This document shows, in pieces, positions 1-44,548 of a DNA stretch of 64,000 nucleotides (its first letter is position 1; each line of letters begins with the position of its first letter). Under the pieces are notes generated by a model, which saw only the letters and a program-made list of their open reading frames with translations, made no database searches and had not been told where the DNA came from. The DNA is from Methylobacterium sp. C25 (GTDB taxonomy: Bacteria > Pseudomonadota > Alphaproteobacteria > Rhizobiales > Beijerinckiaceae), in assembly GCF_021352225.1 (NCBI RefSeq), contig NZ_JAAUVI010000002.1, positions 62,001-126,000 on the forward strand. Direction: 5' to 3'. The translations under genes and the position numbers were made by a program.

Positions 1-2172
1 GTCGCGCGCGGACGCACCCTGCGAGACGGCCAGCGGCCCCCATTCCCGGCCGGCTCGATCGCGCAATGTCGCCATCTCGCCGGCAGCCAGCACGACGTCG
101 CAATCGAGGTGCAGGGTGTCGCCGTCGTTGTCGACGACGCCGGCCGCCTTGCGCACGTCGATGAACCACGGGTCGACCGAGATGGAGTCGCCGCGCTTGT
201 AGATGCGCCCTTCCATCTCGACGCCGAAGGGCGCGGCCTGCCGCCGGAAGGCACCGGATGAGGCCCGCCAGCGGGTAAGGTGCTGAGCGTGCGCGTAGCT
301 CTTTACGCCCGTCCAGCGCTGCCGCGTCGGCGTCAGCGAGGCCTCGCCGTAGATCGCCAACGTCTGGTTCGGAACGCGGTAGTCGCCGTCCTGATCGAAC
401 TCCCCAATGACGTGGCCGGCGCCCGACTCTGTGTCGAGGTCGAAGGTGATCTGAGATGAGCCCTTGAGCATCTGCCGCCGGGTGATGACGTGACGGCGCA
501 CCGACTTCGGCTCGTCGCGCACGAGGCTCCAGAACCGGCCGAGATGGACAGGCTCGGCGCGCATGGCCAGGAGCACGCTCGCCGCCGCCTCGTAGACCGA
601 GACGGGTCCACGGATCGTCGCGTCGAAGGTGTCGAACTCGCTGAGTGCGCCCGCGTAGTAAAGCGCCGTTCCGAGGTCGAGCTGATTGTCCGAGATCGCG
701 CCGCCGTAATCCTGGTTGCGCATGATATCGAGGAAGGCCCAGACCGCCTTCGAGGTCTCTTGCTCGACCCACTGCGAGCCGGTCCACACGGGGATGATCG
801 CCGCAGCGTCGATCTCGATCTCACCGAAGGCGGACGCTTGGTTGCCCTTCGTGGCGTACATGCGCAGCGCCATTTCGGTGACGCCCGGCCGGATCGCCAC
901 GTCGTTCACCCAACCCGAGGCGCCGTCCCACTGCGCGGCGTTGATGTTGGCCGCCCCCGCACCGGTTGACGCCGTCGTGTCGGCAAGGCGGTTCCGGCCA
1001 CGCACGGCATACCGACCGGCCGGCACGTCGAGGAATTTGGTGTAGCGCAGCGGATGCGTGGCGAAGCGGAAGCCCTCGGTGGCGTCACTGCCGCTGTAGA
1101 GCGTCTGCCAAGGGCCGGTGATCGTCCCGCCAGCGTCGATCGGCGCATACTCGAACAGCACCGACCACGCGCCCACCTGGTTGGAGAGCACCACCTTCGA
1201 TTTGGTGGTGATCGTGCTCGAGATGCCCTGTGGGAACTGGAAGTCGACCTGAAGGCGGTTGATGAGCGCGCCCGTCTGATTGATCAGGAAGGGGCCGGCG
1301 ATGGTCGGATTGTCTTCCGGCCGGGGAAGCTGGCCGCCGACGCCCGCCGCCGAAATGACGTTGCTCGGGACCAGCGTCGACGGCGTGCCGTACAGGAACT
1401 CGATTGCGTTGCGAGCATCGTCGAAGGGCGGGAGGAACCCCGAGCCTTCCTTCCACATCACCTGCTTGCCGGCGCGGACCTGGTAGATGTGATACTTGCC
1501 GAGCCCATTCGTGTGGCGCTTGAGCAGGATCTGATCATCACCGTCGTACTGCGAGAAGTCCGGCTGCGAGAGGTCCGGCTTCATCCACGACCGGCCGTAG
1601 CCGCGCGGGATGCGGTCGCCGGGCTTCGGCAGATTGCCGCCGCCGGAAACGCCATAGATCTGCGTCGTGTCGGTCGGGGTCTTGTTCGCCTTGGCGCGGG
1701 ACGCCAGGGAGAGCAGCGCGGTCCCGCCGATGACAAGGCCGGCTTGTAGGGCGAAGGTCGCCGTCGAGCCGAACACCAGGGACGGCAGCAGCGCGCCCGC
1801 GATCGGGCCAGCGAAGGCGGCGAGCGCGAGCCCGGCAATACCGAGAGCGATGGAAAGCGGCGACTTCCGGCGCGAGCCGGCTGATCCGCCACCGATGCCA
1901 CCGCGCGGCAGGTAGACCACGACGACAACCGCGTCGGCCGGCAGGTAGCGTCGCGGCCAGGGCTTCACGTCTCCGGCCTTGTTTCGGCCGCGCGTAACCC
2001 ACGCCTCGTCGATCGGCTGCAACGGGTCACGCGCCCGCTGGATAGCGATCATATGCGGGCGCGACTTGTCGACGTGCCGACCGACCACCTGCGAGAGGCG
2101 ACGGCGGCGCGGGTCGAGCGTCCGCGGCGGCGCAAGAGACTTGCCCGCTGCATTGAGCGTCAGGAGGTGCAT
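1..2172 (-). CDS. Phage tail tip / host-specificity protein, J-like (partial, runs off left edge)
   Basis: An uninterrupted frame of 724 codons runs from an ATG at 2172 to the window edge, so the C-terminus is missing. Around residues 95-155 there is a long hydrophobic, Gly/Ala-rich stretch, a feature of lambda J-type tip proteins, followed by beta-rich sequence. It is the last gene of the tail order (tape measure, distal proteins, NlpC/P60, then this), which is where the central tail fibre/tip attachment protein lies in siphophages. The start overlaps the NlpC gene end as TGATCATG. The product should form the tail tip and contact the host receptor. Family assignment rests on position and the hydrophobic segment, not on a similarity search. 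Confidence 0.8.
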   Translation of the reverse strand, partial: MHLLTLNAAGKSLAPPRTLDPRRRRLSQVVGRHVDKSRPHMIAIQRARDPLQPIDEAWVTRGRNKAGDVKPWPRRYLPADAVVVVVYLPRGGIGGGSAGSRRKSPLSIALGIAGLALAAFAGPIAGALLPSLVFGSTATFALQAGLVIGGTALLSLASRAKANKTPTDTTQIYGVSGGGNLPKPGDRIPRGYGRSWMKPDLSQPDFSQYDGDDQILLKRHTNGLGKYHIYQVRAGKQVMWKEGSGFLPPFDDARNAIEFLYGTPSTLVPSNVISAAGVGGQLPRPEDNPTIAGPFLINQTGALINRLQVDFQFPQGISSTITTKSKVVLSNQVGAWSVLFEYAPIDAGGTITGPWQTLYSGSDATEGFRFATHPLRYTKFLDVPAGRYAVRGRNRLADTTASTGAGAANINAAQWDGASGWVNDVAIRPGVTEMALRMYATKGNQASAFGEIEIDAAAIIPVWTGSQWVEQETSKAVWAFLDIMRNQDYGGAISDNQLDLGTALYYAGALSEFDTFDATIRGPVSVYEAAASVLLAMRAEPVHLGRFWSLVRDEPKSVRRHVITRRQMLKGSSQITFDLDTESGAGHVIGEFDQDGDYRVPNQTLAIYGEASLTPTRQRWTGVKSYAHAQHLTRWRASSGAFRRQAAPFGVEMEGRIYKRGDSISVDPWFIDVRKAAGVVDNDGDTLHLDCDVVLAAGEMATLRDRAGREWGPLAVSQGASARD

Positions 2173-18573: not shown

Positions 18574-20280
18574 TCAGACCATAAGGACGCCGCGGTCCTC
18601 GTAAACGGAGCGGGTGTTCACCGGCTCAGGGTTCAGCGACATCGGCACAACGGCGTCGAACAGCGCCATCACGGGATCGATTTTGGCGTCGCCTGCGTTC
18701 TGTTTCGTTGCGCGGATGCCGGTCGCGCTCGGCTCTATTTTCAGGTTCGACACGGACCAGGCCATGAGGCCGAGGCCGGCATGCCGAAGAGTCCCGTTCG
18801 CCAACTTCCGCTCTGCGGTCTTGATGGCGTTCATCATCCAGAGGCCCTGGGGGACACCAACGACCTGCTTCTCGTCTTGCGTCACGCCGATTTCGGCCAG
18901 CGCCTCGATGAACTCGCCGAGACCGGCCGGATCGACGCCCACGGTTGCTAGCAAGCCCGCAGCCTTCACGCGCGCTACGATCTCGACGATGGCGCTGATG
19001 TCGCCGAGTTCGTCATTGACGATCGTCAACTCTCCGGCCGCCCTGAACTCCTGCAGCTTCGTCGCGATCGACTTGCGCCGCGTCAGCACGCCCTCGTGGC
19101 ACCACGCGTGAGACCACGCGAGCCAGTCGCGGGTCACCTTTTCTCGCCCGAGCACGCAAAGCCCGAACAGATCGTCGAGACCGCCGCCGTCGATGCCGAT
19201 GCAGACGACTTCAGAGCGCTCGAGCACCGCATCGAGAGTGATCGTTGGGTCGGCGCCGCGGGACCAGAACTCGGCGCCAGGCCAGCGGTTTGCCCGAAGG
19301 TTCATCCCGATTTCGACGTTGAGATGCTTTGCCAGGAAGGTCCGGCGAGTGTCCTCGCCCTTCGCCTCTTCCTTCCGAAGCTCATCCTCCAGCCACTCCC
19401 GGCTCACTGACCGGTCAATATTCGGGTTCGTGATGTAGAAGTTGTCCGGGTCGAGGTAGGCCTTTGCCTCGATCATCGCCTTCGGGAACTCGTAGAGCAG
19501 GCCGAAGCTCTTCGGGTCGACGATCTTCCCGTCCCGCACGTCGCGGAAGTAGTCGAGCTTTGCCTTGAACACCCCTGCCGGCGGCTCGTCGCTCTGGGTC
19601 GAGAGCGAGATGACGAAGCCCTCGGGCCGAGACACCAGACCGCCCGTCGCCTCCCTTAGCATTGCGTCCGCCTTCGGGCGCTTTCCGAAGATCCAGAGCT
19701 CGTCGATCAGGATGCGGCCGGCCTTCTTGCCAGAGACTGTGTCCGTGTCGGCCGCGACCACCTTCAGCGCCGCGCGGGTGCTGAGATGCGTGATGGTCTT
19801 GAGATGGTCCTGCAGGTGAAGGAATCCGCCCTCGCCCTGCGACGCATCAAGCTCGGGGTCGGCCCGAACCATTGCAGCCGCGGGCTTGTAGGCGTTCTGC
19901 GCCACCTCGATCGTGGGCGCGAGGATCAGCACTTCTTCTTCGTGGCGCCAGTTGATGATGAGCGCCGTGAGCATGATGCCGGCGCCGAGGGTCGATTTGG
20001 TGTTCTTCTTGCTGATCAGCAGGAAGAAGTCCCGGATCAGCTGCTGACCCGTCTCTTCGTCATTGGCGCCGAAGATGGCGGCAACGAAATCGAACACCCA
20101 AGGCTCGCTCACCTCGCCGAAGGTCGGCTTTCCCGGCAGATCCACGACCCGCAGGGACTTGAAGACCCGCAGTGCGTCCTCTGCCGCCGCCGGGAAGAGC
20201 GGCTTGAACGGGATGAGCGACCGTCCGGCGACGATCCGCTTTTCCCAGTCCGGACACGCCGTGGTCCATTCGGGCCGCAT
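18574..20280 (-). CDS. Terminase large subunit
   Basis: 568 aa, ATG overlapping the small-subunit stop. Residues 87-100 (LLISKKNTKSTLGA) form the Walker A-like loop. RILIDELW (189-196) is Walker B with the catalytic Asp-Glu. The C-terminal nuclease half carries GIDGGGLDDLFGLCVLGRE. It is the packaging ATPase/nuclease acting with the portal. Confidence 0.95.
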   Translation of the reverse strand: MRPEWTTACPDWEKRIVAGRSLIPFKPLFPAAAEDALRVFKSLRVVDLPGKPTFGEVSEPWVFDFVAAIFGANDEETGQQLIRDFFLLISKKNTKSTLGAGIMLTALIINWRHEEEVLILAPTIEVAQNAYKPAAAMVRADPELDASQGEGGFLHLQDHLKTITHLSTRAALKVVAADTDTVSGKKAGRILIDELWIFGKRPKADAMLREATGGLVSRPEGFVISLSTQSDEPPAGVFKAKLDYFRDVRDGKIVDPKSFGLLYEFPKAMIEAKAYLDPDNFYITNPNIDRSVSREWLEDELRKEEAKGEDTRRTFLAKHLNVEIGMNLRANRWPGAEFWSRGADPTITLDAVLERSEVVCIGIDGGGLDDLFGLCVLGREKVTRDWLAWSHAWCHEGVLTRRKSIATKLQEFRAAGELTIVNDELGDISAIVEIVARVKAAGLLATVGVDPAGLGEFIEALAEIGVTQDEKQVVGVPQGLWMMNAIKTAERKLANGTLRHAGLGLMAWSVSNLKIEPSATGIRATKQNAGDAKIDPVMALFDAVVPMSLNPEPVNTRSVYEDRGVLMV

Positions 20281-20873
20281 CAGGAGCTGTGAACCAGCCT
20301 CGGCCCGTTACGCTGGGCGAACTTGCCGCCACCCGACAGCGCCTGATCGGCCGCACTCTGGCGCTGCTTCTTCTTGCCGTCGGGCGCCGAGGCCTCCGCA
20401 AAGGTCTTGGCGGCCAGGGCGAGGTTCTTCAGCGTCCCGGCACGGCTCGGCAGGCTGACCGCCTTCAGCATGGCGTCGCGGCGGCGCGCATCGTTCTTCC
20501 CGGTGGTAGCGTCCTCAATCGCTGTTTCGATCTCGCCAATGTTGGCGGTGTCGGCCTCAAGCTCGTCGAGCATGCGAACAGCGAGCTTCTGGCCTCGGCC
20601 GATGATGGCTTCGGGGCTCGCATCGAACTCTGCCGGAGCCGGGCGAATCCGCTCGACGATGGGTTCGACAGCGTCGGAATTGGGCTGTGCGGCCTGCGGA
20701 GCTGCCTGCGGAGCACCCTCGCCCCGGGGCGGCCACTTCTTCTCTTTGGCGCGGAGGCGGATGGCCTTATCCGAGATGCCGTACCAGCGAGCTATCTCCC
20801 TGATGGACTGATCGGTTTTCGAATACTCGCGCTCGACCGCCGCCCAGTCGATAGGTTTTTTTGCCTTGGCCAT
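20280..20873 (-). CDS. Terminase small subunit-like, HTH
   Basis: 197 aa from ATG 20873; an upstream start nine codons earlier is possible. Residues about 7-50 give a helix-turn-helix (WAAVEREYSKTDQSIREIARWYGISDKAIRLRAKE) like DNA-recognising small terminases. A Pro/Ala linker and a helical segment follow, with a basic Gln-Lys-rich C-terminus. Coupled to TerL. It probably recognises the packaging site. Confidence 0.8.
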   Translation of the reverse strand: MAKAKKPIDWAAVEREYSKTDQSIREIARWYGISDKAIRLRAKEKKWPPRGEGAPQAAPQAAQPNSDAVEPIVERIRPAPAEFDASPEAIIGRGQKLAVRMLDELEADTANIGEIETAIEDATTGKNDARRRDAMLKAVSLPSRAGTLKNLALAAKTFAEASAPDGKKKQRQSAADQALSGGGKFAQRNGPRLVHSS

Positions 20874-20979
20874 CACCCGCTGATCCGCGCTACTCCGCAC
20901 CCTTCGAAATCACCCACCAGGAAAAAATCTGCGAATGGGACCCATTGCGGTAGCGGAGGCCCTAGGCTGGGGACTTTCG

Positions 20980-21252: not shown

Positions 21253-21468
21253 TTAGGTGTGAGGCCTCTCCGTCATCCTCTCGGCCCGAGCCCGCGCCGT
21301 CTTCACCTGATGGTGCTTCGGGCAGAGCGCCTGTCCGTTCGCCGGGTCGAGCGCCGCACCGCCGTCCTTCCGCTCAACGATGTGGTCGGCGTACAGCCTG
21401 ACGCCGCCGTTGCCTCCGCGAACGCCGCATCCGTGCCATTGGCACCGCCAGCCAGCACGTCGCTTCAC
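21253..21468 (-). CDS. HNH endonuclease next to terminase (packaging-type)
   Basis: 71 aa from GTG 21468. CQWHGCGV, YADHIVERKDGGAALDPANGQALCPKHHQVKT give the paired Cys, the DH of the HNH core, the Asn and the C-P-K-H-H end. HNH proteins beside terminase are part of cos-cleavage machines in many siphophages. The frame is open and protein-like for about 45 codons further upstream (RPAPKVADTQLQTAEHKAWALE) but without ATG, GTG or TTG. The annotated start may therefore be internal to a longer ancestral gene. Confidence 0.75.
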   Translation of the reverse strand: MKRRAGWRCQWHGCGVRGGNGGVRLYADHIVERKDGGAALDPANGQALCPKHHQVKTARARAERMTERPHT

Positions 21469-21621
21469 CTCTAAAGCCCAGGCTTTGTGTTCAGCCGTCT
21501 GGAGCTGGGTGTCAGCGACCTTCGGCGCCGGTCGAGCCGTCCGCGTGTCCAGCGTCGATAGACGGGAAGCTAAGATGGAGATGCGGGGGATTGTACTGCT
21601 TTCACCTCATTCCAGAGAAAC

Positions 21622-21780
21622 TTATGAGGCCAGGACTTTCGCCTTGCGCTCGCAGCGCTCTGCTACTTCCGCGCATTCTCGTGCTGCGCCATCGTATCCG
21701 CCACGACGCCACAGTCGCGCGGCGCGCCGCCAATGCGCGGCGCAGCGATGACAGGCTTCGAGGGCAGTCTCAGCTACCAT
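21622..21780 (-). CDS. Possible small helical Cys-containing protein
   Basis: 52 aa from ATG 21780: helical, Arg/Ala-rich with four Cys (EACHRCAAHW, ARECAEVAERCERK). Codon pattern is compatible with coding. It lies just downstream of the 3' half of the tRNA-like gene. Function unknown, and the gene could be spurious. The rest of 21,470-21,805 shows only the upstream extension of the HNH frame. Confidence 0.4.
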   Translation of the reverse strand: MVAETALEACHRCAAHWRRAARLWRRGGYDGAARECAEVAERCERKAKVLAS

Positions 21781-21806
21781 CCCATACCAACGGCAGCCAG
21801 CGGGCT

Positions 21807-21857
21807 CGGTTGCGGCGACTGGATTTGAACCAACGACCTTCAGGGTATGAGCCTGAC
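21807..21857 (-). pseudogene. 3' half of initiator tRNA-Met-like gene
   Basis: On the minus strand: anticodon stem TCAGG / CCTGA enclosing loop CTCATAC (CAT anticodon), variable loop AGGTC, T arm GTTGG-TTCAAAT-CCAGT, then CGCCGCA and A73-CC. The bases upstream do not form a D arm or a matching acceptor strand. The matching 5' half lies 296 nt away at 22,148-22,180. Confidence 0.7.
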
Positions 21858-21868
21858 CGGCTGTCAAG

Positions 21869-22081
21869 CTAGCGCAGGAGAAGGAAGGCGCTGGCGCCTA
21901 GGACTGCAAAGCTCAGCCAGAACCAGAACCGCCAGGGGTTTCCCTCTTTTGGGCCTCCGTACCGATCCACTGGCTTCAGGATCGGGCGGCGCTCCTCATA
22001 GCCAACCCCGAAGACGAAACTCACGACAAGCAGCAGGCATCCAAGGGCGGCTGCGAGTTCGATAAGCGATGTAAGGGACAT
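21869..22081 (-). CDS. Small membrane protein lying between tRNA halves
   Basis: 70 aa with two hydrophobic helices (residues about 6-27, LAAALGCLLLVVSFVFGVG; about 50-69, FWFWLSFAVLGASAFLLL), joined by a polar loop with Pro, Arg and Lys. GGGAAGG touches the ATG. The TAG stop is 12 nt from the 3' tRNA half. It is entirely inside the sequence that splits the initiator-tRNA-like gene. No family is recognised; it could be a holin-like or unknown membrane peptide. Confidence 0.6.
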   Translation of the reverse strand: MSLTSLIELAAALGCLLLVVSFVFGVGYEERRPILKPVDRYGGPKEGNPWRFWFWLSFAVLGASAFLLLR

Positions 22082-22099
22082 CCTTCCCGACTGGCGAAA

Positions 22100-22130
22100 G
22101 TGGCAAGCGTCGCATTAAGACGCTTGCCAC
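22100..22130. repeat. 12-bp perfect hairpin in tRNA-splitting segment
   Basis: GTGGCAAGCGTC, loop GCATTAA, GACGCTTGCCAC: a perfect 12-bp stem with a 7-nt loop. It lies between the 5' tRNA half and the membrane-protein ORF. No U-run follows on either strand, so an intrinsic terminator is not clear. Confidence 0.7.
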
Positions 22131-22147
22131 GCTCTCGGTTCCCAAGC

Positions 22148-22180
22148 GCCTGACGAGCTACCGGGCTGCTCTACGCCGAC
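22148..22180 (-). pseudogene. 5' half of initiator tRNA-Met-like gene
   Basis: Minus strand: acceptor strand GTCGGCG, TA, then GAGC-AGCCCGGTA-GCTC D arm with the A11-U24 pair typical of initiators, G26 and TCAGGC. The sequence then leaves tRNA consensus. Acceptor bases 3-7 pair with CGCCG of the 3' half 296 nt downstream, and G1:A72 is unpaired as in initiators; T2:C71 is a mismatch. GTCAGGC occurs at both junctions. Confidence 0.7.
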
Positions 22181-22223
22181 ATGAAGTTGGGGGGGGCAGC
22201 GGACACGAGCCGCCATTTTCGCC

Positions 22224-22239
22224 GCCTGAGACGCCTCAG
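22224..22239. repeat. Small hairpin CCTGAG-ACGC-CTCAGG
   Basis: A six-bp perfect stem with a four-base loop lies in the otherwise gene-free stretch between the HNH gene (stop at 22,359) and the 5' tRNA half. Apart from this hairpin and a run of seven or more G near 22,190, nothing else is recognised there. Confidence 0.5.
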
Positions 22240-22358
22240 GGGCAGGGCCACCAGCTCATCCTTCGACCCGCACGCGGGGAGTACAAGGGGCGTCGTCCTG
22301 CGTGCATACATCCCGCATTGCGGTTGTAAGTCAAGGGTTTCCGCGCGGAGGTAGCGTC

Positions 22359-22955
22359 TCACTTTGAATTTTGCGCCTCTGAGATTCTTTCCTGCAAAGC
22401 CTCAACCGTCAGCGGCGGATCGCTTGTGTGAACCATCCGATGGCAGTTGGAGCACAGAACCGTCACTTCCTCGACGGTCACGACTTTCGGCTGCGCTAAG
22501 CCCTTTGCAACAGGATTTAGGTGGTGGCATTCGATAAAACCGATGCCAATTTTTCCATAGAACTTCTCAAAATTAAACCCGCAAGCACGACATATAGTTT
22601 TGTATTTTTCTTTCGCCGCAGACACTAAGCCTTTATTGCGTGTAATGATTTGCACTTCTGACCATTTACGTCCACCTTCAGTATATTCACTACTTGATTC
22701 GTCTACATCAGAAACGCAAACAAAGCCAAGGCCTTCCAGAATAGTTCTCGAGTCTCTTGTGGTTTTCTCAGAAGGGGCAGCCGGGGGATTGCAGGACGCC
22801 GCATAAATTGCTTTTAAGTCATAAAAGTTGTTATCATACAATACATAATGACTTTTAGCGCCAACGCCGCGGGCGTACTTTTGCAAAAAAGCTTTTTTCT
22901 TAATAACCTTATATTCTTCGATGCGCTCGAGCACGGATTTTCTTGTTGGCGTCAT
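22359..22955 (-). CDS. HNH endonuclease, McrA-like
   Basis: 198 aa from ATG 22955; codons upstream of it belong to a transposase relic. The C-terminal half has CRACGFNFE, then IGFIECHHLNPVAKG, then VLCSNCHRMVH: a complete zinc-binding HNH with the catalytic His pair. The N-terminal part (KSVLERIEEY..., SHYVLYDNNFYDLKAIYAA) resembles a DNA- or target-recognition domain found in McrA-like restriction nucleases. The gene is clearly AT-richer than the phage backbone, suggesting recent transfer. A role in restricting modified or incoming DNA is inferred. Confidence 0.8.
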   Translation of the reverse strand: MTPTRKSVLERIEEYKVIKKKAFLQKYARGVGAKSHYVLYDNNFYDLKAIYAASCNPPAAPSEKTTRDSRTILEGLGFVCVSDVDESSSEYTEGGRKWSEVQIITRNKGLVSAAKEKYKTICRACGFNFEKFYGKIGIGFIECHHLNPVAKGLAQPKVVTVEEVTVLCSNCHRMVHTSDPPLTVEALQERISEAQNSK

Positions 22956-22962
22956 AGAAAAC

Positions 22963-23168
22963 TCAGTGCGCCTCTCGCTTCTTATAAGCTCCCCGCCTCC
23001 CCAGCTTCGGCGCTGCCGCCTCCGCAAGAGCTGCGATATCCTCCACGCTCTACAACCGATCCGACACGCCAACTGCCATAGCCGGGCTCATCCGATGCTT
23101 CTTGCGCAGCTTCACGAAGTTGTACCAGACCGTATAGAGCGCGACCATGTGCGCATGGTTCTTGAACT
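22963..23168 (-). pseudogene. Transposase C-terminal relic
   Basis: A frame reading KFKNHAHMVALYTVWYNFV, KLRKKHRMSPAMAVGVSDRL, stop (TAG at 23,050-23,052), then SVEDIAALAEAAAPKLGRRG ends at a TGA at 22,963. This matches the C-terminus of DDE transposases found widely in Hyphomicrobiales (NHxxxVALYxxxYNFxxxHK, TPAMAxGxSD). The N-terminal part is absent and an internal stop is present, so it is dead. It abuts the HNH gene and the 18-bp palindrome. Confidence 0.7.
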
Positions 23169-23171
23169 TTT

Positions 23172-23189
23172 ATGCTTGGCGCCAAGCAT
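23172..23189. repeat. 18-bp perfect palindrome ATGCTTGGC/GCCAAGCAT
   Basis: A loopless perfect palindrome between the stop of the XRE-ImmA gene (23,199) and the 5' edge of the transposase relic. It may be a transcription end, an operator or an insertion scar. Confidence 0.6.
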
Positions 23190-23198
23190 TGCGGGCAG

Positions 23199-24272
23199 TT
23201 AGCTCACTGCACGCAGATTGCCACGTGGGGATCGCTCAGGCGTCTCAACGACGCCAGCGAGGTTCCAGATAAGTCCCTCTAGCTCGTCGAGCGGTAGCCT
23301 CAACGCCTTCGCGATATCAGTTTTAGTTGTTCGTTCTTGCCATAGCTGCAGCAGTATCTTCTTCCAAACAATGGAAGTCTCCCGTTCTATGCCGACAGGC
23401 TCTTCAGAGCGATATCTTCTTTTTGTTAGTTCAATACAAAGGTTTTTGTACTGCCACTCTGTGACAATGCCAAGATTGTGCAGCCTATAAGCCATTGCCA
23501 TAGCCGAAACGCGCCAACGCATCTTTGCTTTAAGAACTATCTCTAACGATACAGGTCGCGGCATTCGCGCTTTGACGTCATTCTCTGGCATCAGGAATGC
23601 AGAAGCGAAAGCATCGGCTTCTCGCTCCGCCGCGCGAGACTCTTTTGGATCACCATGCTTATGCATAACAAGGTGCCCAAGCTCATGGGCAGTGTCGAAT
23701 ATACTGCTTTCAGCGGTTTTGAAGTTGTTCAGAAATACGAATGGCTTGTTATCTCGCCAAAACGAAAACGCATTAACTGATGCTGTATTTTCGGAGAGAG
23801 AGAAAACGCGGACACCCTGCGTCTCCAAGAGGCCAAGCATATTCCCGATTGGCCTCTCGCCGAGAGACCAATGCTGACGCAACAGCATAGCTGCAACGGA
23901 TGGACTTGTTTCGTAGCTTAGATCGATAAGATTGGCTTTAGGCAGACCAAAACGCGCTTCAACCCAATCGTTTAGCTGTAAGCCCAGCGAGCCAGCCGAG
24001 ATCGCCGCATCGCGTTCCCGCGCACTCATCTTTGAGAAGCTGCGGAAACTCACGGAGGCGGTATCAATCTCCTCGGGGTCTTGTTCGGTGAAAAACTCGA
24101 CGGGGAATCGCGTCGCCTTAGCGAGCTTGGCAATAGTCAGCTCGTCGGGCTCGTTATTGCCCTTCTCCAGGCGCGAGATCGTATCGACGGCAAGCTCTGC
24201 CTTTTCGGCAAGAGCCTTTCCCGTCATCCGCCGCCTTTTTCGGGCGAGGCTGAGTCTTTTCGCATTGAACAT
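23199..24272 (-). CDS. XRE HTH - ImmA/IrrE metallopeptidase fusion
   Basis: 357 aa. Residues 5-60 are an XRE HTH (SLARKRRRMTGKALAEKAE, VDTISRLEKGN). Residues about 110-235 form an ImmA/IrrE-type zinc peptidase: AHELGHLVMHKHG with HELGH at 196-200 and EREADAFASAFLMP supplying the third ligand. A C-terminal region of about 120 residues is winged-helix-like and ends at 23,199. This architecture is typical of regulators that cleave a partner or repressor on a signal, and occurs in toxin-antitoxin and defence loci. It lies 11 nt after the 203-aa gene, in one operon. AT-richer than the phage backbone. Confidence 0.9.
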   Translation of the reverse strand: MFNAKRLSLARKRRRMTGKALAEKAELAVDTISRLEKGNNEPDELTIAKLAKATRFPVEFFTEQDPEEIDTASVSFRSFSKMSARERDAAISAGSLGLQLNDWVEARFGLPKANLIDLSYETSPSVAAMLLRQHWSLGERPIGNMLGLLETQGVRVFSLSENTASVNAFSFWRDNKPFVFLNNFKTAESSIFDTAHELGHLVMHKHGDPKESRAAEREADAFASAFLMPENDVKARMPRPVSLEIVLKAKMRWRVSAMAMAYRLHNLGIVTEWQYKNLCIELTKRRYRSEEPVGIERETSIVWKKILLQLWQERTTKTDIAKALRLPLDELEGLIWNLAGVVETPERSPRGNLRAVS

Positions 24273-24283
24273 GGCTCGGTTCG

Positions 24284-24895
24284 CTAGATGCGGATCACTT
24301 GGGGGTCAAAATCATCAGCTGCATCGTCGGCCTCAAGCAGCGCGGAGCCGTCGTCCTCATCGCCGAAGCAAAGATAGATGCGCTCGATGAAGGCGGAGAA
24401 GGTGCCGGACGAGACGACTGGCCGAGACAGCTCCGCCGCGCCTTTTTCATCGACCATCAGGTAGAAAGTCGCTTCGCCGTCCGACGGGGCTGCTGCGAAG
24501 GTTGGAAGCTCCCCGAACATGTTGCCGATACAGGTCCGCTCGGCTCCTGCGCCCTTGCCGGACCGGGGCTTCGGGGTCGCGCTATAGTCGCACGCTACAT
24601 CGACGTTGCTGAAGACTACCCGAACCTTCTCGTCATCGTTCCAAATTGCTTCGACGCCGTTCGGCCGTTCGACGCGCCATCCTCTACCGACAAACTCGTT
24701 CCGAAGCGCCCACGTGCCGTGCTGGTAGGCGAATGTTCCGGCAGCGTTCGCGCAATGGTGAGGTGTCGCGTTTGCTGCCTCGCTTCTTGCAACCCTAACC
24801 GCCCGAAGAAGACCTTCGCGGGTCAAGGCTAATTGCAGGATCCGCGGCTCAACCTCCCACGGCTTGCGCAGCACCACTGTTTCGATGAGACCCAT
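24284..24895 (-). CDS. Partner protein of XRE-ImmA module, unknown function
   Basis: 203 aa, GGAG before ATG 24895. The N-terminal half has helical segments (EPRILQLALTREGLLRAVRVARSEA). The middle is beta-rich (YQHGTWALRNEFVGRGWRVERPNG), and the C-terminus is very acidic (DEDDGSALLEADDAADDFDPQ). It has no catalytic motif, signal or membrane segment that I can recognise. It is first in a two-gene operon with the HTH-peptidase and lies just after a 48-bp dyad that should be the operator. It could be the effector or target of the peptidase; this is inference only. Confidence 0.75.
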   Translation of the reverse strand: MGLIETVVLRKPWEVEPRILQLALTREGLLRAVRVARSEAANATPHHCANAAGTFAYQHGTWALRNEFVGRGWRVERPNGVEAIWNDDEKVRVVFSNVDVACDYSATPKPRSGKGAGAERTCIGNMFGELPTFAAAPSDGEATFYLMVDEKGAAELSRPVVSSGTFSAFIERIYLCFGDEDDGSALLEADDAADDFDPQVIRI

Positions 24896-25614: not shown

Positions 25615-26514
25615 TCACAGCCTCCGGATCTGCTTGAACTCAAGCTCGACGGGCGTCGCGCCACCGAAAATCGACACTGCCACCTTCAAGCGCGAGCGGA
25701 CGTCGTCGACTTCTTCGACTGTGGCATTGAAGCTGGCGAACGGGCCGTCCACGACGCGAACCACCTCACCGATCTCGATGGGGTCCGACAGGTCGAGGAT
25801 CGGCGCCGCGCCTATCACGCAGTTCGCAAAGTTCTGCATTTCCTTCGGTCGAACCAGCGCCACCACCAGTCCGACTAGACCTGCTGCGTCCTTTCCCTCG
25901 ACGCGTTCGTAGCGATCGACATTCCACGGGAACTCGCGCGCCGGCACCTCGACCTTGTCGCCGACCTCGACCTTGTCGAAGCGTGTCTCCAACGCATCTT
26001 GATGCTGGGCATCGGTGAGACGGCCGTACCTCTGGCCGGGAACGCGCTCGCCGAGCCAAGGGAAAGCCTTCTGCAGCTTGGCGAGATGCTCTTCGTTATC
26101 GACGCCCACGAACACCGTGCGTGCGACGAGCGGCACCCTGAGCTTCTGCTGTCGTCCTGAGGCTAGGACGCGCGTTACCTCGTCTTGAGCTCTGAAGTGC
26201 GGGATACCTTCCTGGCGGAGCTTCTGGCACAGCTCGTTTGTCCGGCCGACTGAGGCGCCGGCCATCACCCAGCGCTTGTCGTCGACGAGGTCGTGCTCGG
26301 CCCGGCGCTCGGCGATGCGTGCCGCCTCGCGTTCTAGCTGCTCCCGGACATGGCGTTCGCGCGGGCTCTCCGTCCGCGCGCTCTTCTTGGCCGATCCAGC
26401 AGCACGCGCCGCATCCTGCTCGCGCCGGATTTCTCCGCGCCGCATGAACGCCTTGTGGTCAGCCTCGCGGTCTCGCTTGATCCTGAGCCTCTGTTTCCGG
26501 GTCAATCGGCTCAT
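25615..26514 (-). CDS. Phage NusG paralogue (NGN + KOW), candidate antiterminator
   Basis: 299 aa. Residues about 1-80 are a highly charged Arg/Glu/Ala helix not found in housekeeping NusG. Residues about 82-165 read as an NGN domain ([38 protein letters not shown]). Residues about 245-299 are an excellent KOW match ([47 protein letters not shown]). NusG binds RNA polymerase and ribosomal protein S10 or Rho. A phage paralogue at the end of an early operon suggests processive antitermination of the late genes. Confidence 0.85.
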
Positions 26515-42983: not shown

Positions 42984-43175
42984 ATGCAGCCCCTTGCCTA
43001 TCGGATCGACCAGGCCGCCGCGATCATCGGCATCGGTCGAACGAAGCTCTACAGCTTGATCAGCAAGGGCAAGCTGAGAGCGCATCGACATGATGGCGTT
43101 ACGCTGATCCACCGGGCCGATCTCGAGAGCTACTTGGCTGCGGGCGATCCCTTGCCGACGAAGGCCGCCCAGTGA
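42984..43175 (+). CDS. Excisionase / AlpA-like HTH
   Basis: 63 aa from ATG 42984 (AGGAG six nt upstream); earlier in-frame starts lack a ribosome site. YRIDQAAAIIGIGRTKLYSLISKGKLRAHRHDGVTLIHRADLESYL is the MerR-like HTH of excisionases. It overlaps the integrase 3' end tail-to-tail by 46 bp, the usual int-xis relation. Confidence 0.8.
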   Translation: MQPLAYRIDQAAAIIGIGRTKLYSLISKGKLRAHRHDGVTLIHRADLESYLAAGDPLPTKAAQ

Positions 43176-44326
43176 TCCATCAGGAGCCTGCGCTTCTCGA
43201 GCGCGTCTCCTCGGCGATAGGCCCGCTCGGTTTCATCGCCGACGAGGTGCGCCAGCGCGGCTTCGATCACCTCTCGAGGGTGGTCGGTCTCGTCGGCTGC
43301 CCAGTCTCGGAAGCTCGAGCGAAATCCGTGCGTGGTGACAGCATCCTTCTCGGCGCGCCGGAGCAGAGCTTCGAAGGCCATGTCGGACAGCATGCCACCG
43401 GTCGGGCTGGCGAACACCAGATCGTCGTCGGTTCGGGCCTCGAGTGCTCTTTCGGCCAGGATGGCGAGCGCGGCGGCCGGAAGCGGAACACGATGCGGTC
43501 GCTTCATCTTCATGCGCTCATCTGGAACGGTCCAAAGCGCGCCGATCGGATCGACCTCCGGCCAGCGCATGCCGCGGACCTCGCCGGATCTCGAGGCAGT
43601 CAGGATGATGAACTCGAGCGCTCGAGCCGTGACGGCTGGCCTCTGTCGCAGGCTAGACACGAACTCCGGCACTTCGGCCCAAGGCATCGCCGGATGGTGG
43701 CCTCTGCTCAGCCGCTTCGCTCGAGGGAGGATCGCCTCGAGGTGACCGCGCCAGCGCGCCGGGTTGTCGCCCGTTCGTTGACCGGCCGCTCGAGCAGCGT
43801 CCAACACACGTTCGATCCGGCCGCGCAGCCGACGCGCCGTCTCCGGCTTGACGTGCCAGATCGGGCGCAGGGCTTTCAGCACTTCATCCGTGCCGACGTC
43901 GGAAACCGGCAAGTCCCACATGCCATCGGTCTGATGCTCGAGCGTCTGGCGCCATTGCCAACGATGCTGTGCATTTCTCCAGACGGATTCGCGGTCATTC
44001 ATGAAACTTTCTGCCGCGGACCCGAAGGTGATGACGGCCGGGGCAGCCTGTTTTGGTGGGGTGCGGCGCGCTTCAATGGGGTCCACCCCACCAGCGATTT
44101 GCTCTCGAGCTTCTGCCGCAACCTCTCGAGCGCGGGCCAGCGAGACGCTGATGACGGAGCCGAGCCCCATCTCGCGTCGGCGCCCATCAATGCGATAGAG
44201 AAGCACCCATCGCTTCGCGCCGGCATCGTCTACGACAAGATAGAGGCCGCCGCCGTCAGCGTGCCGTCCGCGCTCTGTGAGCGTCTGGACGCGACGGGCA
44301 GACAGGCGATTGACGGCTCGAGCCAC
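43130..44326 (-). CDS. int: Tyrosine integrase, P4-like
   Basis: About 398 aa from GTG 44326, chosen because VARAVNRLSARRVQTL with GRHADGGGLYL is the usual start of DUF4102 integrases; an ATG 16 codons upstream exists. C-terminal catalytic landmarks include FIILTASRSGEVRGMRWPEVD (Arg box), THGFRSSFRDWAADETDH (H-x-x-R) and DALEKRRLLMDHWAAF near the nucleophile region. It lies about 150 bp from the tRNA-Ala gene, whose 3' end faces it, as expected for a tRNA-targeting integrase. Confidence 0.93.
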   Translation of the reverse strand: MARAVNRLSARRVQTLTERGRHADGGGLYLVVDDAGAKRWVLLYRIDGRRREMGLGSVISVSLARAREVAAEAREQIAGGVDPIEARRTPPKQAAPAVITFGSAAESFMNDRESVWRNAQHRWQWRQTLEHQTDGMWDLPVSDVGTDEVLKALRPIWHVKPETARRLRGRIERVLDAARAAGQRTGDNPARWRGHLEAILPRAKRLSRGHHPAMPWAEVPEFVSSLRQRPAVTARALEFIILTASRSGEVRGMRWPEVDPIGALWTVPDERMKMKRPHRVPLPAAALAILAERALEARTDDDLVFASPTGGMLSDMAFEALLRRAEKDAVTTHGFRSSFRDWAADETDHPREVIEAALAHLVGDETERAYRRGDALEKRRLLMDHWAAFVGKGSPAAK

Positions 44327-44472
44327 AGCACCCCACCACGCACCCCACCGACGTTTGCGGATTGCCGCGAACACGTGAGAACATTTGCGAACGGATTTGT
44401 GCTAGTTTGGCGGAAGCCCGCAGCGGACGCCAGTCATAGGAGGACGGAAATGAACGCCCGCGAACGCCATCC

Positions 44473-44548
<76 letters not shown>

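Follow-up and report, generated by a model that had tools for sequence, protein, structure and literature searches.

How does an initiator tRNA gene come to lie in two pieces, with a segment bearing an open reading frame between them, and could such a gene still yield a tRNA? The question is raised by a stretch of 64,000 nucleotides of Methylobacterium sp. C25 (assembly GCF_021352225.1, contig NZ_JAAUVI010000002.1, positions 62,001 to 126,000), here called the window, to which coordinates refer unless another contig or locus is named.

An initiator-type tRNA in two pieces

The interrupted gene and its parts are as follows:

22148..22180, minus strand: 5' half of an initiator-type tRNA, comprising the D arm and the 5' strands of acceptor and anticodon stem, with 33 nt of identity to the contiguous tRNA of viral contig L103
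21807..21857, minus strand: the corresponding 3' half, comprising the complete anticodon stem-loop (CAT), the T arm and the 3' strand of the acceptor, 44/49 to G025 and L103
22148..22154, minus strand: GTCAGGC, copy 1 of a 7-nt junction duplication, ending the 5' half
21851..21857, minus strand: GTCAGGC, copy 2 of the duplication, beginning the 3' half
21858..22147, minus strand: inserted segment of 290 nt, second copy not found

Read together, the two pieces form 19 of the 21 pairs of the cloverleaf, and they offer the CAU-anticodon cloverleaf and the open 1:72 pair of an initiator tRNA, in a gene that is not contiguous. The 5' half matches the phage tRNA of L103 at 33/33 positions, that of L133 at 29/33, that of genome G025 at 28/33 and a host-type gene at 29/33; the 3' half matches L103 and G025 at 44/49 each, L133 (genome G079) at 43/49 and the host-type gene L052 at 45/49. 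The encoded end of the tRNA is CCG, not CCA. Joining the two flanks produces a sequence that ARAGORN calls as tRNA-Met(cat) of 76 nt, and the locus as it stands is called as a tRNA neither by ARAGORN nor by Rfam at its gathering score. These pieces are hard to ascribe to chance, given that an exact 27-mer of the 5' half is common to 26 viral contigs, and from sequence comparison we judge the halves at 22180-22148 and 21857-21807 to be one initiator-type tRNA, interrupted.

The first-pass annotation of this DNA, made from the letters alone, had both halves at the correct coordinates and on the correct strand, and our analysis bears out its observation of GTCAGGC at both junctions (22154-22148 and 21857-21851) and of pairing between acceptor bases 3-7, five pairs in all, across the gap. 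It had described 1:72 as unpaired; the position is indeed open, but two acceptor pairs are open rather than one (1:73 G.A and 2:72 U.C in alignment numbering). Its sizes for the insert, 289 and 296 nt, are each one short, since 290 nt lie strictly between the halves and 297 nt are extra relative to the contiguous gene. The covariance-model search that it proposed for the locus detected no tRNA above threshold (21.7 bits against a cut-off of 29, over the 3' half plus some insert sequence) and no group I or II intron.

Contiguous relatives and selection on the tRNA

Related prophages carry the uninterrupted gene, a check that had been set beforehand and that supports the initial proposal of a tRNA-like gene interrupted by an insertion. 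The 26 IMG/VR contigs with the exact 27-mer represent 23 distinct sites, three contigs repeating the 200-nt neighborhood of another. At 19 of the 23 sites the 3' half stands directly behind the 5' half, with one extra base in two sites and two in one; ARAGORN calls tRNA-Met in 18 of these 19, and the remaining one (L099) has a changed anticodon. The other four sites (L091, L093, L097 and L109) are degenerate, the remainder of the gene being truncated or too altered for the search pattern, and among them L093 is still called tRNA-Met by ARAGORN. At L091 (about 953-900, minus strand) the reading frame of an ORF continues into the tRNA 5' half, which is truncated at the anticodon region.

A degenerate pattern applied to 111 genomes of the host genus matched 30 genomes at 31 places. 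Of eleven places inspected besides the window, two proved to be unrelated sequence and nine to be phage-type copies in contiguous form; one other sequence, which we take to be tRNA-Pro, is common to the remaining 19. By this one pattern, the phage initiator-type family occurs in 10 of the 111 genomes, the split copy included. Six of the nine contiguous copies are tRNA-Met by ARAGORN, and those of G005, G025 and G085 are uncalled, although the G085 copy scores above the Rfam cut-off (37.5 bits). These decayed contiguous copies keep fewer cloverleaf pairs (15 in G025, 15 in G005, 16 in G085) than the 19 of 21 in the window.

Covariation was assessed over 17 contiguous phage copies (16 distinct). 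In this alignment 96.9% of 320 cells pair, a percentage made favorable by the choice of better-preserved copies and above that of all 500 shuffles, and sliding the partners by one to three columns lowers pairing to 25-52%. Two-sided changes occur at 9 of 20 pairs, a level that 0 of 500 shuffles attained, and the count of further pair types was reached by 24 of 500. The two-sided changes are confined to the D, anticodon and T stems; the acceptor stem has none, and its pair 2:72 is unformed in 7 of the 16. On the strength of these compensatory changes, the contiguous family is a real phage tRNA under selection for its cloverleaf. Copies of a GTCGGCG type (viral contigs L092-L116 and L213) that have the usual 3' end show U.C at the second acceptor pair; in L213, where the partner is changed, the pair is A:U, and the GTCGGCG rows were themselves chosen by the search pattern. 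Several intact phage copies retain the host anticodon loop.

A wider survey covered 138 distinct sites of the 5' core, host tRNAs and tRNA-Pro among them. The 3' core lies directly behind, or up to two bases off, in 105 of them, is absent within 3 kb in 30, and is found elsewhere in three: the window, L107 and L206. The 5' cores of L107 and L206 each have their own contiguous tRNA by ARAGORN, and no second case of separated halves was found among the 138 sites within the 3 kb range. L107 carries two tandem initiator-like tRNAs (328-405 and 734-811, minus strand) 328 nt apart, and L180 (about 1871) and L190 (about 1225) show apparent relics in which two tRNA-like sequences are fused, as a deletion between neighboring copies would leave them.

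The inserted segment

Two features lie within the insert, and both had been described correctly at first pass, including the hydrophobic character of the predicted protein:

21869..22081, minus strand: orphan ORF of 70 aa with two hydrophobic stretches, from hydropathy and codon-position G+C
22100..22130, minus strand: perfect inverted repeat of 12 bp around a 7-nt loop, which the terminator scan does not pick out

The best 19-residue hydropathy means of the ORF are 2.56 and 1.66, and its codon-position G+C (0.65/0.45/0.70) falls inside the range of seven neighboring phage genes. No relative was found in Pfam, PHROGs, PADLOC, IMG/VR, GTDB contigs or phage records, and none that convinces in the 111 genus genomes, where the best other match has an E value of 0.0137; these weak loci reappear in the collected set of 348 loci, which they entered through this query. 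A terminator scan of 21500-22500 reported no terminator-like site, the hairpin included.

The search for further copies of the insert that the first-pass annotation had suggested came back empty throughout. In the own genome and the 111 genus genomes, with up to six first-look candidates scored per genome, insert DNA produced only matches of about 19-37 nt; the 348 collected loci hold no second copy; and exact scans for the hairpin in IMG/VR viral contigs, and for part of it in genome contigs, returned nothing. Among phage DNA records (the best 20 of 147) and plasmid records (the best 20 of 275), each match covers at most 16% of the query and a copy of the insert is absent; the annotated phage matches are mostly to tRNA-Met. 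The junctions carry no terminal inverted repeats, by reading and by repeat search, the internal 12-bp hairpin being the only such structure. Measured by what defines an insertion sequence or MITE, the segment has a target-site duplication (GTCAGGC) and lacks both terminal inverted repeats and multiple copies. The pieces and insert together fold with a z score of -1.23, 8 of 100 shuffles being at least as stable.

The phage late region and the presumed integration site

The split gene lies among genes of a prophage late region:

25615..26514, minus strand: NusG/KOW-type antiterminator of 299 aa (phrog_6386 transcription antiterminator, 6.1e-18; Pfam KOW above cut-off, NusG N-domain below)
22359..24895, minus strand: cargo between antiterminator and leader, comprising an HNH protein, an RmrA-like protein (HTH and IrrE-like) and an RmrT-like protein
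21253..21468, minus strand: HNH endonuclease, downstream of the tRNA pieces
18574..20900, minus strand: terminase small and large subunits

The order antiterminator, tRNA, HNH, TerS, TerL is the same in the window, in G025 and in G034, other loci showing one side only, and the contiguous orthologue of G025 is found in the corresponding position, next to a TerS with 90% identity to that of the window. PADLOC matches in the cargo are strong for the RmrA-like (1.6e-177) and RmrT-like (3.5e-79) defense proteins; the cargo HNH protein resembles a type IV restriction model (5.9e-09). Where the window has this RmrTA cargo, the G025 locus (L117, 4960-5949, plus strand) has an ORF of 329 aa on the opposite strand. 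Since the window and G025 hold different genes between antiterminator and terminase, the region is prone to taking up cargo and does so differently in different phages. In the viral-contig copies, flanks of several unrelated kinds meet at the tRNA ends, as judged by eye. The segment that interrupts the tRNA would seem to be a further newcomer to this region.

The presumed point of integration is marked by two further features:

43130..44374, minus strand: tyrosine integrase of the prophage, beside tRNA-Ala(CGC) at 44473-44548
44471..44489, unstranded: presumed attachment repeat of 19 bp, one copy, the other at contig C12:44987-45005

About 100 bp separate the end of the integrase gene from tRNA-Ala(CGC), and the 19-bp repeat corresponds to the 3' end of that tRNA (search E value 5e-4), its second copy lying about 61 kb away. 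The prophage appears to sit in tRNA-Ala(CGC); bounded by these repeats, it would measure about 61 kb. The split tRNA was also considered as an attachment site. Integrase and repeat both point instead to tRNA-Ala(CGC), and the candidate was rejected.

A leader RNA beside the antiterminator

In relatives, a structured leader stands between the stop codon of the antiterminator gene and the tRNA. Its counterpart in the window is:

22203..22304, minus strand: probable divergent copy of the conserved leader RNA element, from alignment with relatives only (model R1 without a match)

The covariance model R1, built from seven sequences, matches 37 places in 26 of the 111 genus genomes; six of these are the model's own sequences, leaving 31 new places and 20 new genomes. 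Leader copies in loci L326-L355 lie mostly around 1501-1597. R1 has no match in the own genome, the window leader included, or in 23 further loci, including L117 (G025) and L086, and Rfam calls nothing at the leader in the 20 loci scanned. Over 33 aligned matches, seven of which are the model's own and all of which are in an alignment fitted to the model, two-sided changes are found at 15 of 24 pairs; on each of five measures the alignment exceeds all 500 shuffles, and every slid control falls below it.

In 15 of 29 inspected loci the leader is preceded, at a distance of 3-16 nt, by the stop of an ORF with a KOW-like C-terminus recognized by eye, and a tRNA-Met called by ARAGORN stands close downstream in 4 of the 30 model-found loci (L326, L327, L328 and L330). 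By these counts, the leader is often accompanied by the antiterminator, and the tRNA may be present or absent. The leader could be the recognition element of the phage NusG-like antiterminator, and this side result may matter more than the split tRNA itself.

Host initiator tRNA in the assembly

Whether the cell has another source of initiator tRNA bears on how the split gene is understood. No whole initiator tRNA appears among 41 of the 42 tRNA matches in the own assembly. A host-type initiator query recovers nothing beyond the two pieces, one fragment of 28 nt (C34:173688-173715) and weaker matches 22-31 nt long; the fragment is 96% identical to the host type, ends in the anticodon loop and lies about 1.5 kb from a contig end. 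16S rRNA is likewise absent from the assembly by a search that detects it in only 9 of 14 control genomes. Several host initiator copies of relatives stand at contig ends and are probably located in rRNA operons. Since no 16S rRNA was found and the copies of relatives lie at contig ends, the rRNA operons, and host initiator genes with them, were likely lost in assembly, a reading that is not firm because the 16S search misses controls.

Origin and fate of the split gene

We hold it highly probable that one lineage-specific insertion, with a 7-nt duplication, disabled a phage-borne initiator-type tRNA gene in a cargo-prone late region. According to this explanation, a tRNA gene placed between the NusG-like antiterminator and the terminase genes, contiguous in relatives, would have received in a single event the 290-nt segment with its hairpin and orphan ORF; the observed anatomy puts the segment at the end of the 5' anticodon-stem strand, and the repeated heptamer would be the duplication that the insertion left. 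Transposition-like insertion, template switching or site-specific recombination could each leave such a mark. The intact gene would probably be transcribed with the late region and processed to extra initiator tRNA in lytic growth. Because the acceptor strands now lie about 300 nt apart and seven bases are repeated, the transcript should no longer fold or be processed to a tRNA in the normal way, which would make this a recently disabled copy, and the 70-aa ORF may be expressed as new late-region cargo. Decay is common in the family (three of the nine contiguous genus copies are uncalled by ARAGORN and four of the 23 viral sites are degenerate), which speaks for disabling. Against it stand the window pieces themselves, better kept than the contiguous decayed copies of G025, G005 and G085, and an own assembly that lacks a whole initiator tRNA, as it also lacks 16S rRNA. 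The good preservation of both pieces fits a recent insertion, and continued use would look alike.

Continued use would mean that the insert is removed at the RNA level, by an undescribed type of intron or by cleavage at the pieces followed by ligation, so that the split gene still yields initiator tRNA. The 19 kept pairs, five of them acceptor pairs across the gap, and the call of joined flanks as tRNA-Met agree with such removal, which we nonetheless regard as very unlikely. The intron-like insert envisaged at first pass is not borne out: Rfam intron families have no match in the window at the gathering score, nor in 21700-22300 up to an E value of 1, the pieces and insert are not unusually structured, and among the 138 5'-core sites there is no other whose own 3' half stands apart from it inside a range of 3 kb, in which 30 have no 3' core at all. 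Moreover, the 7-nt repeat stands at both junctions, so that splicing must drop one copy, and the encoded CCA is lost. It is correspondingly very doubtful that the late transcript is cut at the pieces, with the acceptor strands pairing to form a joined or two-piece initiator tRNA, and there is just as slight a prospect that the membrane-protein ORF is an intron-like passenger of such a gene. If true, the tRNA of a bacterial virus would here be built from halves that are encoded apart.

The other readings concern where the segment came from. It may itself be mobile though non-autonomous, a MITE-like element or the cassette of a recombinase, with the initiator tRNA as its target and a 7-nt duplication as its mark; we treat this as a possibility of modest weight, one compatible with the disabling insertion. 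The junction duplication and the combination of a hairpin with a single ORF suggest it, and the absence of terminal inverted repeats at the junctions, of a second copy (in the own genome, in the 111 genus genomes with few first-look candidates scored, and in 348 loci) and of any exact hairpin match in IMG/VR, or of part of the hairpin in genome contigs, argues the other way. The inserted mini-element of the first-pass annotation is thus upheld as an insertion with a 7-nt duplication and, with modest probability, as a mobile one. It is unlikely that the pieces descend from a tandem pair of tRNAs flanking a small ORF, each of which lost one half, as might be imagined from the paired tRNAs of L107 and the fused relics of L180 and L190: such a history would require two deletions that share an end point at one hexamer, and the missing halves leave no trace in the insert. 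A second tRNA copy hidden there was ruled out by 12 alignment tests against shuffles (lowest p 0.087). Fragments of tRNA genes often mark attachment sites, which favors the remaining idea, of a decayed attachment site as raised at first pass, here one that lay in an initiator tRNA of the host; we give this hardly any credence, with the integrase about 100 bp from tRNA-Ala(CGC), the 19-bp copy of its 3' end about 61 kb off, and contiguous relatives that share the same late-region position.

If the copy is broken by insertion, as we prefer to think, it offers a clear example of phage tRNA gene erosion and shows small genes entering the antiterminator-terminase hotspot. Of greater value is the intact family, an initiator-type tRNA under selection in prophages, detected by one pattern in 10 of 111 genus genomes with the split copy counted, for which we know of no tested function.

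Comparison with known systems

In the literature searched, we recognized neither a split initiator tRNA in a phage nor the leader RNA. Bacterial tRNA genes with group I introns and archaeal split or intron-containing tRNAs provide precedents in which tRNA halves are separated in the genome, as they are here; the present case differs in that no intron family matches and the relatives share no insert.

Closer in setting are the phiLM21-like prophages of Sinorhizobium meliloti, which contain single Met/fMet(CAU) tRNA genes found by tRNAscan-SE (PMC12429752). They resemble the prophage described here in having one CAU tRNA inside, different from the tRNA of the integration site, and in their predicted antiterminators; in the portions of that report on which we draw, no split copy is described and the place of the tRNA relative to antiterminator and terminase is not given (PMC12429752). 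In tRNA-dependent lysogeny, a tRNA encoded by the phage replaces the isotype destroyed at attB (PMC10865867). The likeness is that of a temperate phage with a tRNA gene, but here the tRNA is initiator-type and integration is apparently at tRNA-Ala. Why a phage should have an initiator tRNA at all might be explained by the hypothesis that phage tRNAs evade anticodon nucleases, initiator tRNA being a known target of VapC (PMC10264068). Where the anticodon itself is targeted, as by VapC of Shigella, phages are stated to avoid generally the encoding of tRNA-fMet (PMC10264068); in the family described here, several intact copies retain the host anticodon loop.
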